A stretch of 8,936 bases of DNA from Myxococcales bacterium. GTDB lineage: Bacteria; Myxococcota; Polyangia; Fen-1088. Below are positions 2,534 to 8,884 of the stretch, piece by piece. The position numbers and the translations under genes are program-made. Numbering within the stretch: position 1 is the stretch's first letter; each line of letters begins with the position of its first letter. The stretch spans positions 1 to 8,936 of the forward strand of contig PMLH01000517.1 in NCBI GenBank assembly GCA_003159055.1. Direction: 5' to 3'. The notes beneath the pieces were generated by a model that had not been told where the DNA came from, made no database searches, and was given only the letters and a program-made list of their open reading frames with translations.

Positions 2534-3490
2534 TTACTGTGCAGGTTTGCCCTGCGCAAGCGCAACCGCCAATCTCAGGGTCGTCGCCTGACGGATGTGA
2601 TGCTCGATCCTGGCGATTCGTTCCTCGGTGTATTCGGCCATCGCGCAAATCCCGAGCTCTTGCCCAGCGACCAGTGCCCTCTTCTGCAGGCGAATGGCCC
2701 GCCGTAGGAATCTTTCAAAAAGCGGAGCTGCAATCAATGAATTCCGCAGGGCCACAGGATCGCTCTGCCGGTTTCGCGGCAACAAGGATCGCGCCGTCGA
2801 AAGCAAATAGGTTTGCGCGCCCGATTGCAGATCACGCGAAAAGCCAAGAACGTCGTTGACCAGACCGTAGGCCTCACCCAGGTGATCGATCATCCGATCG
2901 ACGGCAGCCATTCGTTGGTCGCCATCCTTCCGCATGCGCGCCAGCAGGGCATAAAGCGGTATGCGAGCCAAGGCGACTTTGCGCGCATGTCGGCGAAAGG
3001 CCGCTAGGCGATACGGCTGCCTTTGCGCGAGCACCACCCTTTCCGCCTCGGTTTCGCCGGAGAACATCATCCACGCCGCTCGCGCGCGTTGCCAGAAGCG
3101 ATCGCCGCTGGCGAAGGTCGCCACCACGGCGATGGCATCTGTGAGTAGCAGGTTGCCGAGCAGAAGCTGGGGAGGGCTGCCTCGGGTTGCGGGCTCGTCG
3201 ATGACATTGTCCTCGATGCGAACGAAGAGATAGGCAAGCGCCGTCGCTTCCAGCAGGTCACGCAGGCCAGGAAACCCCGTGCGATCCGCGAGCCAGATAG
3301 GCAAGTGAAGAATCGGCGCCGCGTCCGGCCGGGAAAAATAGCGGTGCGGCTCCGGCCCCATCGTGGCGACCAGCTCGGTAGCAAGACGACACAGGGGTCT
3401 CGGATAGGCACGCCAGCGACGTTCGATGCGCGACCACACCTGGTCGAGAATTCCTTGGTTGCGTTCGTAGCACTGCAAAGTCGCGGCCAT
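2534..3490 (-). CDS. Class I isoprenoid biosynthesis enzyme (terpene/phytoene synthase fold)
   Basis: This 318-residue protein is almost all helical. It carries two Asp-rich motifs in the order and spacing of class I isoprenoid enzymes: RIEDNVIDEP (DNVID at 94-98, a DDxxD-type motif) and, about 115 residues later, LVNDVLGFSRDLQSG (212-224). The second resembles the NDxxSxxxE metal-binding triad, with Gly for Ser and Asp for Glu. Such enzymes bind a prenyl diphosphate through Mg2+ ions and ionise it to cyclise or join isoprenoids. I cannot tell a terpene cyclase from a squalene/phytoene-synthase-like head-to-head enzyme; substrate and product are unknown. There is no signal peptide, so it should be cytosolic. 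ATG 3490 lies 6 nt after the stop of the upstream cyclase-like gene with no strong Shine-Dalgarno, so translational coupling is likely. The neighbouring toroid protein (4861-5922) is also of isoprenoid type. Fold assignment is fairly sure; the exact reaction is open. Confidence 0.85.
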   Translation of the reverse strand: MAATLQCYERNQGILDQVWSRIERRWRAYPRPLCRLATELVATMGPEPHRYFSRPDAAPILHLPIWLADRTGFPGLRDLLEATALAYLFVRIEDNVIDEPATRGSPPQLLLGNLLLTDAIAVVATFASGDRFWQRARAAWMMFSGETEAERVVLAQRQPYRLAAFRRHARKVALARIPLYALLARMRKDGDQRMAAVDRMIDHLGEAYGLVNDVLGFSRDLQSGAQTYLLSTARSLLPRNRQSDPVALRNSLIAAPLFERFLRRAIRLQKRALVAGQELGICAMAEYTEERIARIEHHIRQATTLRLAVALAQGKPAQ

Positions 3491-3496
3491 CCGGAA

Positions 3497-4864
3497 TCAC
3501 ATTGCCGATGGTGGAAGGACGGCGCCGCCGACCAGCGCGCCGGCCAGGTTGATGCGATAGATGGCGGAATCCACGGCCATGCCGTCGATCATTTCATCCG
3601 GGATACGCTCGGCGCGGTAGATGCCACGGATGGCATCGTGCACTGGGGCGTTGATGAGAATGTCTGCGTCGAGCGCGAGACAGACGCTGCGCAGCCGACT
3701 CGAGAGATTGGCGGCTTTGCCCACCACCGTGTATTCCATCCTCTCGGACGAGCCGATGTTTCCAGCCACCACAAGCCCCTGCGCCACCCCGATGCCGATA
3801 CGGAGGGCGGGCCATTTTCCCGCGTTCTGCTTGTTCCAAGCCACCACCGCCTCGTGCATCTCGAAGGCGGCCCGCACGGCAGCACCGGCTGCATCCGGGA
3901 GATCGGTGGGAATGCCGAAAATGGCACTCACCCCTGCGGCGGTGAACTTGTCGAGCGTGCCGCCGTGACGAAACACGATTTCGACCAGACCGGCGCAGTG
4001 CCCATTCAAAATGTCGACGACTGTTTCGGGCGCAAGCTGATCGGCAAGTCGGGCAAAATCGCGTATCTCGGTGGTGAGGACCGCGGCCATGCGGCGAGCG
4101 CCCCCCATCGAGACGGATCCTGGGTGGCGAACGGCATAGTCACGCACATGCGGCGAGAGGTAGCGTCGGTACATGTCTTGCGTCTGCTCCAGCTTGCGTT
4201 TGCGTACGGTGGCTTCGGCGGATTGCAAGAGTAGACGGCGCGAGGTGTGAGAGACCCAGGCCGCAAGCACGCCCGAAACCACGATGAAGACGATGGTCAT
4301 GATCTGGTCGTCGGTGCCCAGCGCGCGCACGCCGTACACCGAGGTCGACGACAGCACGACCCAATGTCGCCCCGCACAGTAGAGGAAGATGATCGTCCGA
4401 TGCACACCGGCCATGACCGCGGCAAACAGGGACAGCCGCACGTTGAACTGAAGCGCGGTCAGCATGTTGAACATCATGTAGAGGACCGGCGTGGTCGGAA
4501 ATAACAAGGCCTCGTAGGCACCCGATGGATTGTAGAGACTCGAAACGGAAACCATCGACACAACCGACGCATCCAGCGTGATGCCAACGTACTTGAACCA
4601 AAACGGATAGGCCGACCTGCGCGAGAGCAGAAGCCCCAGTCCGGCGAAAAGCAAAAGCACCACGCCCGCCCCAACGCCCAGGCGCGTGGTCATCGGCGCG
4701 TTTGATTCGGCCACCGCTAGCCCGCTGCCGATGCCAAAGACGGCGAACAAGGCGCGGATGACGAAGGTGTTTCGCTGTCCGCGATGGGCCTCGCTGCGCA
4801 AGATGCCCTTCACCTCCTCGGGCAGATCGTCCACGGTCATTCGCCGGCCGTTCCAGATACTCAA
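3497..4864 (-). CDS. Membrane-anchored class III adenylate/guanylate cyclase homologue, probably lacking metal-binding residues
   Basis: The protein has 455 residues. About six hydrophobic segments lie within residues 33-205 (clear ones at about 33-52, 62-80, 141-163 and 188-205). A basic coiled linker (209-230) and the typical connector YRRYLSPHV (232-240) lead to a class III cyclase domain (about 257-440). Conserved features are HGGTLDKF with Lys306, YTVVG with Thr379 at the purine-selecting position, and NLSSR with Asn386 and Arg390, the transition-state residues. Both metal-binding aspartates are altered. The first (usually F-x-D-I-R-G-F) is Glu266 in TTEIRDF. The second (usually K-F-x-G-D) is Ala310 in DKFTAAG. 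Catalysis is therefore doubtful; it may be a nucleotide-binding pseudo-enzyme or sensor. TTG 4864 is the start because GAGGAGG lies 7 nt upstream; it overlaps the previous stop by three bases. ATG 4840 has no good ribosome binding site. The gene sits between two isoprenoid-type genes, suggesting a regulatory or localising role. Confidence 0.9.
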   Translation of the reverse strand: MSIWNGRRMTVDDLPEEVKGILRSEAHRGQRNTFVIRALFAVFGIGSGLAVAESNAPMTTRLGVGAGVVLLLFAGLGLLLSRRSAYPFWFKYVGITLDASVVSMVSVSSLYNPSGAYEALLFPTTPVLYMMFNMLTALQFNVRLSLFAAVMAGVHRTIIFLYCAGRHWVVLSSTSVYGVRALGTDDQIMTIVFIVVSGVLAAWVSHTSRRLLLQSAEATVRKRKLEQTQDMYRRYLSPHVRDYAVRHPGSVSMGGARRMAAVLTTEIRDFARLADQLAPETVVDILNGHCAGLVEIVFRHGGTLDKFTAAGVSAIFGIPTDLPDAAGAAVRAAFEMHEAVVAWNKQNAGKWPALRIGIGVAQGLVVAGNIGSSERMEYTVVGKAANLSSRLRSVCLALDADILINAPVHDAIRGIYRAERIPDEMIDGMAVDSAIYRINLAGALVGGAVLPPSAM

Positions 4865-5922
4865 AGAAGCGCCTCCTCGACGAGAATCAGGGCCGAAATG
4901 GCAACACAGGTAGCATATACATCACCGGCGTAGAAAAGCACGGCCGGGGCCGGCGCGAGGTGAAATGCCCCGTTCGCTGACTGCGAAGACAGCAGCCATC
5001 GGACGGCTCGTCTAAGAGAACGCTTGCACCGGGGCGTGTTTACACCGGCAGCGATAAGAGTACGAATCGCAAGGCCGGTCGGAAGTGGGCTCGGGCGATC
5101 CGCAAATCCCGCGAAGCCCCATCCACCCGTGGTGCTTTGCTGACCAAGCGTCGCGCGCACGACCGCGCCCCGCTTCTGGCCGACGTGAGCCACCGCCAAG
5201 TGGGCAGGATAGTAGGGCGTTGCATAGAACGCCGGGTGTGCGCGCCACAGCCCGTCCGGAGCGACGGTCTCTCGCAGATACGTCCGGGCTTCGGTGGCCA
5301 GCGGATGGCTTGCGCCAAGCGCGCCGAGGGCCCACGCCGTGACCGAGGGACCGGCGAGGTAGGAGTCGTAGCCGCCTTGGCCGGGCAGGATGAAGTTGGG
5401 CCAACGTCCCCCGGGTAGCGCATGCCGGACCAAGGTCGAAGCCAGGCGGCGGCGCTGGCTCGGCAAGGCATGCCAGGCCGCCGAGCAGGTTTCGATGCAC
5501 AGGCTTGGGTGTCCGCTCCAGTAAGACAATTCTCCCCGTCGGGAAACACGGCTGCGCACGAAACGTTCGGCAGCCGAATTGGATCTTCCGGCAGCAGAAA
5601 AAGCCAAGATTGCCTGGGTCGTGTGCCAGATGTCGGCGCCACCTTTCAGACGAAAGGCAAGCCGTCGCGATGGACGCACCTTGGCCAGCGCGGCCAGCGG
5701 GTGCGCAATGACATCGTTGATCGCGCCCGATGGAAGCTGGCACGTCAGAAGGTATGCAATTGCCCGATCCACCGCATCCCGGAGGGCGGACGACGTGAGC
5801 CGAAGGGAAGGAGTGACCTGGCTTCGCAAGCAACCAAGGCATAGCATGCTGCCGAGCGTTGCCACCAGCGCCCCGAGATCGCTTGCGAATCGGTGGCGGA
5901 GCAGGACGCTGTTCCGCCACAA
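4861..5922 (-). CDS. Prenyltransferase/squalene-cyclase-repeat (alpha/alpha-toroid) protein
   Basis: This protein has 353 residues from the chosen start. It contains repeated units of the type 'helix, Q-x-x-x-G-x-(W/F)' found in squalene-hopene cyclases and prenyltransferase beta subunits: LLTCQLPSGAI (58-68), APDGLWRAHP (221-230), LGQQSTTGGWGF (259-270) and LLSSQSANGAFHL (310-322). Between them are helix motifs such as DIWHTTQAILAF (97-108) and DVYATCVAISAL (334-345). No DxDD motif, the general acid of class II terpene cyclases, is visible, so it may be a non-protonating cyclase relative, a prenyltransferase-like protein or a binding protein. A hydrophobic, Leu/Cys-rich stretch near residues 14-32 might contact the membrane; it is not a convincing signal peptide. 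TTG 5922 is preferred because GGAGGAG lies 6 nt upstream; the frame stays open to a TTG at 5937, which overlaps that Shine-Dalgarno. It is the first gene of the minus-strand cluster. The repeat family is fairly sure, the reaction unknown. Confidence 0.82.
   Translation of the reverse strand: MWRNSVLLRHRFASDLGALVATLGSMLCLGCLRSQVTPSLRLTSSALRDAVDRAIAYLLTCQLPSGAINDVIAHPLAALAKVRPSRRLAFRLKGGADIWHTTQAILAFSAAGRSNSAAERFVRSRVSRRGELSYWSGHPSLCIETCSAAWHALPSQRRRLASTLVRHALPGGRWPNFILPGQGGYDSYLAGPSVTAWALGALGASHPLATEARTYLRETVAPDGLWRAHPAFYATPYYPAHLAVAHVGQKRGAVVRATLGQQSTTGGWGFAGFADRPSPLPTGLAIRTLIAAGVNTPRCKRSLRRAVRWLLSSQSANGAFHLAPAPAVLFYAGDVYATCVAISALILVEEALL
4872..4878 (-). promoter_or_regulatory. Strong ribosome binding site deciding the TTG start of the cyclase-like gene
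   Basis: GAGGAGG on the minus strand lies inside the last codons of the toroid-protein gene, 7 nt before TTG 4864. It supports the TTG as the real start and gives a stop/start overlap (TTGA). Confidence 0.75.
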
Positions 5923-5928
5923 CGCTTG

Positions 5929-5935
5929 CTCCTCC
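5929..5935 (-). promoter_or_regulatory. Strong ribosome binding site deciding the TTG start of the toroid-protein gene
   Basis: GGAGGAG on the minus strand lies 6 nt before TTG 5922. The alternative TTG at 5937 would place this element inside the coding region, so the shorter form is favoured. Confidence 0.75.
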
Positions 5936-6170
5936 AATCTGAGCTTGCGAGGTCACACCTGCCAATGTGTTCTGACAATAGGTTCCAGTCAGGACAATGG
6001 TCGAATAGGTTGAGTCCTTTGCGTCGAACATAGCGAAGGCAAGTGCACGAGCAACCCCATGACAACGCCTGGGCGTCGTCGATTGTTCGTGGCTGAGCAG
6101 TCCTCTCGCCTGAGCGCGCGAGGTTTGCGCCGCACAGGGTAACCCTTCCCATAGGTGGCGCATCAAACAT
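5936..6170. other. Divergent intergenic region between the isoprenoid cluster and pnt operon
   Basis: No gene is convincing here. It should contain promoters in both directions. On the minus strand TTGTCA (5972-5977) resembles a -35 box, but no good -10 follows at 16-18 nt. On the plus side I see no clear sigma70 promoter. A short inverted repeat, AGGGT-A-ACCCT (6136-6146), lies about 35 bases before the transhydrogenase start. I also looked for a sigma54 GG-N10-GC pattern on the minus strand and did not find one with correct spacing. Confidence 0.5.
5977..6017. repeat. Imperfect direct repeat in the divergent control region
   Basis: AATAGGTTCCAGTC (5977-5990) is followed, 27 bases on, by AATAGGTTGAGTCC (6004-6017); the first eight bases are identical, and AGTC recurs one base out of register. 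GACAAT also occurs twice here (5974-5979 and 5993-5998). The repeats lie 55-95 bases upstream of the minus-strand cluster start and 160-200 bases upstream of the transhydrogenase operon. Binding by a regulator is only a possibility. Confidence 0.4.
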
Positions 6171-6180: not shown

Positions 6181-7332
6181 ATGCTCAAGGTCTTTATCGC
6201 GAAGGAACGGGCCAAGGGGGAAGCGCGGGTCGCCGCTACGCCAGAGACGGTCAAGCGGCTGGTGAAGGAAGGGCTGGAAGTCGTCGTCGAATCGCAAGCG
6301 GGCGAAGGTGCTCACATTCTCGACGAGCGCTACGAAGAGGCGGGGGCGCGCGTTGCGGCGGACCTGGAAGCGGAGTGGGCAAGTGCGGACGTGGTCTTCA
6401 AGGTGGCTGCGCCGGAGGAGAAGGCCGGAGGAAACCCCGTGACCGCACTCAAGTCCGGCGCGCTTCTCATCTCGTTCCTGCAGCCCTATCGCAACCTGGC
6501 GATGGTCAAATCCCTCGCTGCCGGCAAGGTGACATCGCTCGCTATGGAGCTGGTTCCGCGAATCACGCGGGCGCAATCGATGGATGCTCTTTCGTCGCAG
6601 GCCAACATCGCGGGCTACAAGTCGGTGCTACTGGCGGCGAGCAAGCTTGGAAAATACTTCCCGATGCTGATGACGGCGGCAGGAACCATTCCGCCGGCGA
6701 AGGTTGTGGTGATGGGCGCGGGCGTGGCGGGATTGCAAGCGGTGGCGACGGCGAAACGGCTGGGCGCGGTCGTGTGGGTGTCCGACGTTCGACCGGTGGT
6801 GAAGGAGCAGGTCGAGTCGTTGGGCGGCAAGTTCATCGATTTGCCGACGCAAGAATCGGGGGAAGGGCAGGGCGGCTACGCGAAAGAAATGAGCAAGGAC
6901 TTTCTCGTGCGCCAACAAGCCATCATCAAGGAGCACATCGCGAGCGCGGATGTCGTGATTACCACGGCGCTGATCCCTGGCCGGCCCGCCCCACGTTTGG
7001 TCTCCGCCGACATGGTCAAGGCGATGCGACCGGGCTCGGTGATTGTGGATCTTGCGGCCGACCAAGGCGGCAATTGCGAATTGACCGTGGCCGACCAGGA
7101 AACCGTCGCGCATCGAGTGAGCATTCTTGGTTTCACCAATTTGTCGTCGAGCATGCCGCTCGACGCGAGCACGCTCTATGCGCGGAATGTTCTGGAGCTG
7201 GCCCTGCTCGTGCTCAAAGGTGGCAAGTTGACGCTCGATCTTGACGACGAGATCATCAAAGGGACGCTGCTGACCCACGACGGGCGCATCGTTCACGGTC
7301 CCACGGCCAACGCGGTCAAGGCGGCGCCATGA
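6181..7332 (+). CDS. pntAA: NAD(P) transhydrogenase subunit alpha 1 (NAD(H)-binding domain I)
   Basis: This is the soluble domain I of Re/Si-specific nicotinamide nucleotide transhydrogenase, which exchanges hydride between NAD(H) and NADP(H). The 383 residues cover the whole family length. The N-terminus MLKVFIAKER is of the usual type. RITRAQSMDALSSQ (127-140) is the conserved loop that contacts NAD. GAGVAGLQA (179-187) is the Rossmann nucleotide loop, with Asp202 in VSDVRP selecting NAD over NADP. TTALIPGRPAP (261-271) and DLAADQGGNCE (290-300) are also conserved. I see no missing key residue. ATG 6181 is preferred because homologues begin at this point and GGGAGG lies just before it; ATG 6169 would add four residues. 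The stop overlaps the next start as ATGA. The alpha chain is split in two, as in Rhodospirillum and Thermus, not fused as in E. coli. Confidence 0.95.
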   Translation: MLKVFIAKERAKGEARVAATPETVKRLVKEGLEVVVESQAGEGAHILDERYEEAGARVAADLEAEWASADVVFKVAAPEEKAGGNPVTALKSGALLISFLQPYRNLAMVKSLAAGKVTSLAMELVPRITRAQSMDALSSQANIAGYKSVLLAASKLGKYFPMLMTAAGTIPPAKVVVMGAGVAGLQAVATAKRLGAVVWVSDVRPVVKEQVESLGGKFIDLPTQESGEGQGGYAKEMSKDFLVRQQAIIKEHIASADVVITTALIPGRPAPRLVSADMVKAMRPGSVIVDLAADQGGNCELTVADQETVAHRVSILGFTNLSSSMPLDASTLYARNVLELALLVLKGGKLTLDLDDEIIKGTLLTHDGRIVHGPTANAVKAAP

Positions 7333-7646
7333 TCGGCGAAGTGATGGGTGAAATAGCGGGTGAAATGACCGGTGGCCTGCTGATATCTCTCTACCTGTTC
7401 ACGCTGGCCGCATTCTTGGGGATGGATGTGATCCGCAAGGTTCCGCCCACGCTGTATGGCGCGCTGGCCGCGGCCGTGGGCGCGGCGGCGGCGTTGGCCG
7501 TCGTCGTTGCTTTGCCATCGGCGGGTGCCAGCCGTCCTGGTGTCGCGGCGGCCTTGACCACCGTCGCAGTCATGATCGGCAGTGCAGGCGTCGTCGGCGG
7601 ACTTCTGCGACTTCGACGTCTGTCGCACAAGCGAGGCGGCAAATGA
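7329..7646 (+). CDS. pntAB: NAD(P) transhydrogenase subunit alpha 2 (membrane part), divergent
   Basis: This 105-residue membrane subunit has three hydrophobic segments (about 15-32, 43-63 and 72-92). The first contains LLISLYLFTLAAFLGMDVIRKVPP in outline, the hallmark start of PntAB (usually LYIFVLAAFxGYxxIxxVPP). The next helix is very unusual: where homologues have LHTPLMSxxNxIxG, this protein has LYGALAAAVGAAAA (42-55). The His, Thr-Pro, Met-Ser, Asn and the Ser/His of that helix, some of them linked to the proton path, are thus replaced by Tyr, Gly or Ala. The C-terminus is short and basic (RLRRLSHKRGGK). It overlaps both neighbours by ATGA junctions, so the three subunits should be made in step. 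Identity rests on the first helix, the length and the operon position, and is secure; coupling to protons is in doubt. The homologue motif is recalled, not aligned. Confidence 0.92.
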   Translation: MIGEVMGEIAGEMTGGLLISLYLFTLAAFLGMDVIRKVPPTLYGALAAAVGAAAALAVVVALPSAGASRPGVAAALTTVAVMIGSAGVVGGLLRLRRLSHKRGGK

Positions 7647-8884
7647 CGGCCGGGCTCGCCGCGTATGGCGTGCCGGTACTGTACATCGCATCGGCGGTGT
7701 TCTTCATAATGGGGCTCAAGCTGATGTGCCGTGTGCGCTCGGTTGGCCGTGGTGGTGTTTTGCTCGGCATTGGCTTTCTTCTCGCCGTGCTGGGCATAGC
7801 GATCGAAGCCGCGCGCCTCGATCCGAAATTCGCGCTGATCGGCCTTGCGGGGGGCGTGCTACTCGGACTGTCCTTGGGCTACGTGACGAACATCGACCTT
7901 CGCCCCAGCGTGGGACCTCTCCTCGCGGCGGCGGGCGGGATCACGGCGCTCTTGCTTGGCATCGCGGTCTTCCTGCACCAAGAATCGTGGCCGCTCGCAA
8001 ACGACCTTGCCTTGTCGGGTGGAGTGCGTGGCGCGGCCGTCGGTCTGGCCGTGGTTTCCGGGGCGTTTGCCCTCGCATTCGGGCTTCTTGCCGGGTTCGG
8101 CCCCGCTGCCCGCGGCGCCGGGCGGCCGGCGGTGGTTGCCCTGGCCGCGTCCGCCTCGGGCTTGGCTGCGGCAATGATGGGGTTCGCGCTCGGCAATCCC
8201 ATCGTTGTTGCCGTGGGTGGATTGACCACCACCGCGGGCTTGTCTCTGTCGAGCATCGTGGCGAACGCGCTCGGATCGAAGCCGCTCGACGTTGCGTTCG
8301 GCACTTTGGGCAGGCGTGCAGGCGATGAATACAGCGATGTCAAAGCGTGCGGCCCGGAGGAGACGGCGATGGTACTCGAATCTGCACGCAAGGTGATCTT
8401 CGTCCCTGGCTACGGCATGGCAGTCGCGCAAGCCCAACACGCGCTTGCCGACCTCGGCAAGATGCTGGAGGCGCGCGGCGCGAAGGTTCTCTATGCGATT
8501 CATCCCGTGGCGGGATTGATTCCCGGCCACATCAACATTCTGCTCGACGAGGCCAAAATCGACACCGCACAGATCCTCGAATGGGAAGCCGCCAACCGCG
8601 AGCTTGCCGACACTGACGTTGCCCTGGCGGTGGGGGCCAACGACATCGTAAATCCGGATGCGCGGGGCAACTCGCAAAGCGCCGTGTTCGGCATGCCTTT
8701 CGTCGACGTCGGTCGTGCGGCCGCAGTATTCGTCCTCAAGCGAAGCCTGCGGCCCGGTGCCGCCGGCGTGAAGAATCCGCTGTTCGAACGGCCCAACACC
8801 AACATGGTGTTCGGCGACGCAAAGAAGGTGCTGCAAGCCATCGGGGTCGAGCTGAAGGCGCAAGCCCCGAGGAAGGCGGCGTAG
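7643..8884 (+). CDS. pntB: NAD(P) transhydrogenase subunit beta (membrane domain plus NADP(H)-binding domain III), divergent membrane part
   Basis: This 413-residue subunit is shorter than the usual 460 or so. Residues 1-210 form about seven to eight hydrophobic helices; residues 235-413 form domain III, which binds NADP(H). Domain III is well conserved: PGYGMAVAQAQ (255-265), IHPVAG..PGHIN (286-298), GANDIVNP (331-338), LKRSL (365-369), AGVKNPLF (374-381) and NTNMVFGDAKK (385-395). In the membrane part, RPSVGPLLAAAGG (87-99) aligns with the E. coli segment around beta-His91 and has Ala95 at that place. RPAVVALAASASG (161-173) aligns with the segment around Asn222 and has Ala169. The helix usually reading TGSVIAFGKL is SGAFALAFGLL (139-149). 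The N-terminal GLK is followed by a non-canonical loop (GLKLMCRVRSVGRGG). GAGG (7633-7636) serves as ribosome binding site, and the start overlaps the pntAB stop. Hydride transfer looks possible; proton translocation may be lost or altered. The alignments are from memory. Confidence 0.94.
   Translation: MTAGLAAYGVPVLYIASAVFFIMGLKLMCRVRSVGRGGVLLGIGFLLAVLGIAIEAARLDPKFALIGLAGGVLLGLSLGYVTNIDLRPSVGPLLAAAGGITALLLGIAVFLHQESWPLANDLALSGGVRGAAVGLAVVSGAFALAFGLLAGFGPAARGAGRPAVVALAASASGLAAAMMGFALGNPIVVAVGGLTTTAGLSLSSIVANALGSKPLDVAFGTLGRRAGDEYSDVKACGPEETAMVLESARKVIFVPGYGMAVAQAQHALADLGKMLEARGAKVLYAIHPVAGLIPGHINILLDEAKIDTAQILEWEAANRELADTDVALAVGANDIVNPDARGNSQSAVFGMPFVDVGRAAAVFVLKRSLRPGAAGVKNPLFERPNTNMVFGDAKKVLQAIGVELKAQAPRKAA

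Follow-up and report, generated by a model that had tools for sequence, protein, structure and literature searches.

The closest described systems to the one considered here are the two-chain transhydrogenase PntAB of Escherichia coli, which has 13 helices (PMC5742237), and the three-chain enzyme of Thermus thermophilus (PDB 4o9u/4o93). In the canonical model of these nicotinamide nucleotide transhydrogenases the enzyme holds NADP(H) captive while hydride is transferred, and exchange takes place as domain III docks onto the channel in step with proton movement (PMC9529548, PMC8551311); the mechanism that couples the domains is still described as incompletely understood (PMC5742237). The transhydrogenase described here is encoded in a window of 8,936 nucleotides (the whole stretch analysed, positions 1 to 8,936 of contig PMLH01000517.1, assembly GCA_003159055.1) from a Myxococcales bacterium, where three open, tightly packed frames on the + strand encode its alpha1, alpha2 and beta chains. 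As judged from alignments it belongs to a distinct conserved transhydrogenase subfamily, which has lost the usual residues of the proton channel and, in domain III, residues of the NADP(H) latch. The subfamily is a newly recognised conserved variant within a known enzyme family, and the reading that we favour, with a fair degree of probability, is that of an uncoupled NAD(H)/NADP(H) exchanger anchored in the membrane, in which the latch on the nucleotide was loosened along with the channel. The three chains are placed as follows.

6169 (or 6181)..7332, + strand: alpha1 chain, domain I, NAD(H)-binding (frame, Pfam, NF006942, PDB relatives)
7329..7646, likely true start 7365, + strand: alpha2 chain, membrane helices TM2-TM4 (TM, transmembrane helix; frame, Pfam, alignment)
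7643..8884, + strand: beta chain, 413 amino acids (frame, Pfam, alignment)

The chains carry the Pfam domains AlaDh_PNT_N/C, PNTB_4TM (2.3e-11) and PNTB (3.4e-93), and their PDB relatives are the transhydrogenases of E. coli, Thermus, R. rubrum and mitochondria. They are homologous to E. coli PntAB throughout, with nucleotide-binding motifs alike, and the membrane part is homologous to that of the PntAB/NNT family. The alpha1 chain clears the NCBIfam subunit alpha model NF006942 (447 bits, cut-off 383), the cut-off of the alanine dehydrogenase equivalog TIGR00518 is not reached (150.4 against 391.85 bits) and the beta chain stays below that of the PntB equivalog (230 against 689 bits, with the best stretch at residues 138-400). 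For alpha1, which was examined in the window only, domain I has the AlaDh_PNT fold, and the window is identical in 27 of the 28 columns that reach 95% conservation among 104 canonical rows; PRITRAQSMD, which we take to be the Arg-Gln-Asp loop, was read by eye (30 of the 104 aligned rows are gapped near it). The likelier start of alpha2 is M13 (base 7365) rather than 7329, because all 55 rows have this Met and the displayed relatives begin there. The task proposed here for the complex, equilibration of NAD and NADP without a proton gradient, is like that of the soluble transhydrogenase SthA/UdhA, a flavoprotein of another family; a Pfam scan of the three window chains gave no flavoprotein domain. 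The PF00205 label on some relatives was set aside as a weak similarity under the Pfam cut-off.

The subfamily can be recognised from the best 120 of 7636 protein matches to beta. It is taken here as the 44 chains of at least 405 amino acids among the first 53 (P0001-P0053; nine shorter ones were dropped), which are 52-70% identical to the window chain and 408-426 amino acids long. These score at least 369 bits, and the canonical chains that follow among the matches listed, mostly of 450-490 amino acids, score at most 288 bits. Two chains that were left uncounted, P0054 (431 amino acids, 62%) and the fragment P0056 (233 amino acids, 72%), probably belong to the subfamily too. The alpha2 search gave 55 matches (55 of 55 listed), all counted here, fragments too, and of the same kind by alignment. 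The longest contig is of equal size in 11 alpha2 and beta clusters (e.g. 36443, 31835, 158408, 275987), which suggests that these alpha2 and beta clusters are from the same contigs. The four clusters with a named source (P0005, P0149, P0151, P0165) are all from Polyangia bacterium, and subfamily chains, where named by their sources, are labelled as subunits of an ordinary or a proton-translocating transhydrogenase. A quick tree of 90 rows, with long branches flagged, joins the 24 of the 44 subfamily rows that were used into one group with a support of 100 and a branch of 1.24. Thus the distinct subfamily that the original prediction had offered as one of its possibilities is shown by searches, alignment and tree together.

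Two canonical sets were used for comparison, namely 51 of the 63 matches P0058-P0120, of 445-500 amino acids (52 with K-12 for the identity comparison), and 117 loci (L002-L118), 110 of them with an alpha2-like frame; both are biased toward query-like sequences and the second also toward one phylum. Mean pairwise identity within the subfamily is 0.64 in the membrane part and 0.79 in domain III, and 0.58 and 0.68 in the same columns of the canonical chains, although as one lineage is here set against a wider set only the ratio is comparable. No description of such a subfamily was found in the open-licence papers searched. A scan of genome contigs with the subfamily alignment, whose patterns proved too general, gave no subfamily member among the 80 loci kept, all of which retain Asp213 and Asn222. 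The whole beta chain gave no subfamily-level match to the membrane part in 195 genomes from the phylum of G002, where at most 9 first-look candidates were scored per genome and many of the matches are missing from the listing. A search limited to the membrane part (E 1e-12), which without a positive control shows nothing by itself, was empty in 5 genomes (phylum of G001) and in 198 each for G003 and G004, whose lists overlap. Seven relatives were found on viral contigs, none above 45% identity, and 294 plasmid records were all below 60%.

The loss of the channel is most apparent in the membrane part of beta, where the following positions matter.

7646..8269, + strand: beta membrane part, seven predicted helices at 2-28, 34-56, 61-81, 91-111, 126-152, 161-183 and 186-209 (predicted model)
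7925..7927, + strand: Ala95 at the E. coli His91 position (alignment)
8018..8098, + strand: helix 126-152, with the Ser139-Lys145 stretch and TM11 missing (alignment, predicted model)
8120..8125, + strand: Gly160-Arg161 at E. coli Asp213-Met214 (alignment)
8147..8149, + strand: Ala169 at the E. coli Asn222 position (alignment)
8276..8278, + strand: Ser212 at the E. coli Arg265 position, with Arg in 39 of the 44 subfamily rows (alignment)

The predicted model of beta (mean predicted local distance difference test, pLDDT, 82.8) has seven membrane helices against nine in canonical chains (TM6-TM14), two fewer than in the Thermus three-chain enzyme; so short a chain had been suggested to fit a rebuilt membrane domain. 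In helix 126-152 the beginning of TM10 seems to run straight into the last part of TM12. The stretch around Ser139 is deleted in all 44 subfamily rows, S139 being present in 116 of 117 canonical loci, and the earlier pairing of TGSVIAFGKL with SGAFALAFGLL is not upheld by this alignment. Asn222 has become Ala in 44/44 rows and Asp213 has become Gly, Ser, Ala or Val in as many, both residues being present in 117/117 canonical loci, and position 91 is Ala, Ser, Thr or Pro throughout the subfamily; His91, Asn222, Asp213 and Ser139 are all retained in E. coli PntAB, unlike the window. If each helix is trimmed by four residues at either end, the cores that match TM9, TM10 and TM13 are free of D, E, K, R, H, N and Q in all 44 rows. 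The original prediction of membrane parts stripped of their usual channel residues is therefore borne out by the alignments of 44 beta and 55 alpha2 relatives, as is its placing of Ala95 and Ala169 opposite His91 and Asn222, and the predicted beta helices of the window contain no His.

These same observations bear on whether the enzyme might still be coupled to protons, or to another ion, by way of a rearranged path. This might be a water wire formed by Ser170 and Ser172 together with TM14, which is rich in Thr and Ser, and ending at Glu55, Lys26 or Arg129. In favour of such a path, the membrane part is conserved inside the subfamily, S172 is kept in 43/44 rows, K26, E55 and R129 are invariant in a 40-row alignment, and canonical enzymes without the central histidine do exist. 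It is nevertheless unlikely, as the three helix cores are bare in 44/44 rows, the Asp213-Arg265 link to domain III has lost its Asp213 half, and the latch residues of domain III, expected to be necessary for coupling, have gone with it. Much less probable again, to the point of being hardly credible, is that the operon is decaying toward a pseudogene or that its odd residues come from faults of assembly or alignment. An Ala-rich and shortened membrane part might be expected from decay, but the three frames are open and close-packed, the changes recur across several sources, in 44 beta and 55 alpha2 sequences, and the membrane part is conserved. Enrichment in Ala driven by guanine plus cytosine (GC) content was also considered and was rejected, for 46/46 canonical loci with a GC of at least 0.63 keep S139, D213, N222, R265, R350 and an aromatic residue at 431; the share of Ala is 0.225 in the subfamily and 0.147 in those 46 loci.

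The alpha2 chain, for which the predicted model gives three helices at low confidence (pLDDT 66.0), has a signature of its own.

7455..7490, + strand: alpha2 residues 43-54, YGALAAAVGAAA, replacing HTPLMSxxNxIx, with His to Tyr43, Asn to Gly51 and the Thermus His42 position to Ala54 (alignment)

It had been claimed that the alpha2 motif LHTPLMSxxNxIxG is replaced, and the alignment indeed puts LYGALAAAVG of the window opposite LHTPLMSGSN of Thermus 4o9p. The claim for the alpha2 histidine holds in that the Thermus His42 position has no His, but the LHTP histidine, alpha His450 in E. coli, is a different residue and faces Tyr43. Among the 55 alpha2 relatives the LHTP position is Tyr in 46, Gln in 3, Phe in 1 and His in 5, and the Asn458 position is Gly in 54, both residues being invariant in the canonical operons (110/110). 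Compared with the Thermus enzyme, the channel positions of the window are Ala, Gly and Tyr, and in domain III Arg350 and Tyr/Phe431 have been lost.

The central histidine was at first the main argument for uncoupling. The E. coli H91A enzyme gives no pumping signal (PMC8551311). It is absent at both central positions of the window, Ala95 (beta 91) and Ala54 (alpha2 42). However, the 110 canonical operons have His at beta 91 in 53 and at alpha2 42 in 1, and 56 have it at neither, so its absence is not distinctive and is by itself not diagnostic of the subfamily; as the main argument it was dropped. In these 56 operons the two central positions are Ser/Asn in 55 and Ala/Gln in 1, and the only membrane-part histidines found in more than a quarter of the 55 Ser/Asn rows are alpha His450 (all) and beta His161 (40%), which by our reading lies between TM10 and TM11. 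At 30 loci from the phylum of G002 residue 91 is His in 21 and Asn in 9. As an observation in its own right, the statement that the central histidine is conserved may fail for 56 of 110 canonical transhydrogenases, with the LHTP His present in all 110. The stronger grounds for a putative uncoupling are the losses of Ser139, Asp213, Asn222, alpha His450 and alpha Asn458, together with those of Arg350 and the aromatic residue 431.

The last two of these lie in domain III.

8351..8881, + strand: domain III, NADP(H)-binding, with GYGMAVAQAQ, GANDIVNP and KRS present (alignment)
8516..8518, + strand: Leu292 at the E. coli Arg350 position, latch (alignment)
8546..8548, + strand: Asp302, fixed in the subfamily, Ala360 in canonical chains (alignment)
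8759..8761, + strand: Ala373 at the E. coli Tyr431 position, loop E, lid (alignment)

The proposal that domains I and III keep their nucleotide-binding motifs holds for the motifs themselves, but not for two positions of domain III, where Arg350 has become Leu292 and Tyr/Phe431 has become Ala373. Of the 44 subfamily rows, 41 have Leu at the first position, 2 have Val and 1 keeps Arg, and at the second there is Ala in 39, Ser in 4 and Thr in 1; canonical rows with a letter there have Arg (116/116) and Tyr or Phe (116/116). Other residues are retained, Tyr315 in 42/44 and Asp392, Lys424 and Arg425 in 44/44 each. The equivalents of Arg350 and Tyr315 form a hydrogen bond in the detached, NADP(H)-occluded state which is absent in the attached state (PMC9529548; the partner of R350 is printed there once as Y325 and elsewhere as Y315, which is followed here). 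Loop E has been defined as K424-F439 (PMC9529548, and hydrogen exchange work) and so includes residue 431, which from this location probably matters for the NADP(H) lid.

New residues have also become fixed, Asp302 at the Ala360 position in 44/44 rows and Arg157 in 41/44, and these may mean new contacts. Along with a membrane anchor retained without its channel residues, they would fit a complex without net transhydrogenation that serves mainly as a sensor or buffer of NADP redox state, or performs cyclic exchange only, and that is tethered to a site or partner by its membrane part. This is a rather improbable reading, as both hydride-transfer domains retain their catalytic and nucleotide-binding motifs (for alpha1, in the window chain).

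Under the favoured reading of an uncoupled exchanger, a three-chain transhydrogenase subfamily would have given up proton coupling and its membrane part would survive as a short, very hydrophobic anchor and dimer scaffold. Loss of the channel only might leave NADP(H) stuck, so the joint loss of channel, Asp213 link and latch would make sense. With the trap weakened at the Arg350-Tyr315 bond and at the aromatic residue of the loop E lid, NADP(H) should therefore exchange without the help of a proton gradient, and the complex would equilibrate the two pools in a direction set by the pools themselves. From the sequences we infer that protons are not conducted, that NADP(H) exchanges more easily and that the role is that of a redox equilibrator; of the options in the original prediction the uncoupled equilibrator is thus the best supported, by five membrane and two domain III losses, though it stays at the level of inference. 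The chances are about even that this is a natural conserved lineage in which proton channel and NADP(H) occlusion latch were lost together, making a free-running membrane-anchored hydride exchanger from a reversible proton pump.

Several points weigh against this. Polar S170 (41/44) and S172 (43/44) are kept, and S172 faces Thermus Thr214 in the alignment, a residue whose change to Ala removes more than 90% of channel-coupled activity (PMC5742237). Glu55 lies near a helix end in 43/44 rows and Lys26 is present in 44/44, R265 is kept in 39/44 although it is Ser in the window, and the LHTP His and Arg350 are retained in 5/55 and 1/44 rows respectively. Dividing the identity of the membrane part by that of domain III gives a slightly lower value for the subfamily (0.64/0.79) than for the canonical chains (0.58/0.68). 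Residue 431 is not named in the literature examined, and the 56 of 110 canonical operons without a central His are presumably coupled, so that a proton path may need fewer titratable groups.

A possible intermediate step is the 429-amino-acid beta chain P0061, which like the subfamily has the deletion, a short membrane part, Asp at Ala360 and Ala at His91, with Arg350 changed to Val. Unlike the subfamily it keeps Asn222 and Phe431, and it is 45% identical. It stands beside the subfamily in the quick tree with a support of 99, on a long branch that makes its placement unsure, and among the best 120 of 7998 matches to it there was no other short beta chain.

Other forms of PntB were met in the searches. 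A tandem double domain III is present in 12 of 13 long matches of 540-700 amino acids (P0055, P0057, P0063, P0064, P0070, P0073, P0081, P0082, P0083, P0085, P0090, P0097), the sources of two such chains being named as Desulfobacula sp. and Desulfobacterales. In the two that were read, P0055 and P0081, KRS is absent from both copies and CNY, CNF or CNL stands instead; KRS has a role in binding the 2'-phosphate of NADP, and this binding may have been lost. P0098 (615 amino acids) is a natural alpha2-beta fusion in which PNTB_4TM precedes PNTB and the beta part is full-length.

The remainder of the window holds other frames.

541-2244, + strand: Ser/Thr kinase, C-terminal part without a family match
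2232-2648, - strand: small protein with weak NHLP/Os17-type and Frankia-type ribosomal peptide matches, below curated cut-offs
2534-3490, - strand: frame of 318 amino acids without a family match, beside the small protein
3497-4864, - strand: adenylate/guanylate cyclase-type domain behind a hydrophobic N-terminal part
4861-5937, - strand: weak C-terminal match, squalene-cyclase-like

For the transhydrogenase family, a lineage that loses both ends of the coupling link at once points to the residues that form the link. If true, this would be a natural experiment on the residues that couple the two halves of the enzyme, and it is a caution that a PntAB homologue need not always be a proton-driven source of NADPH.

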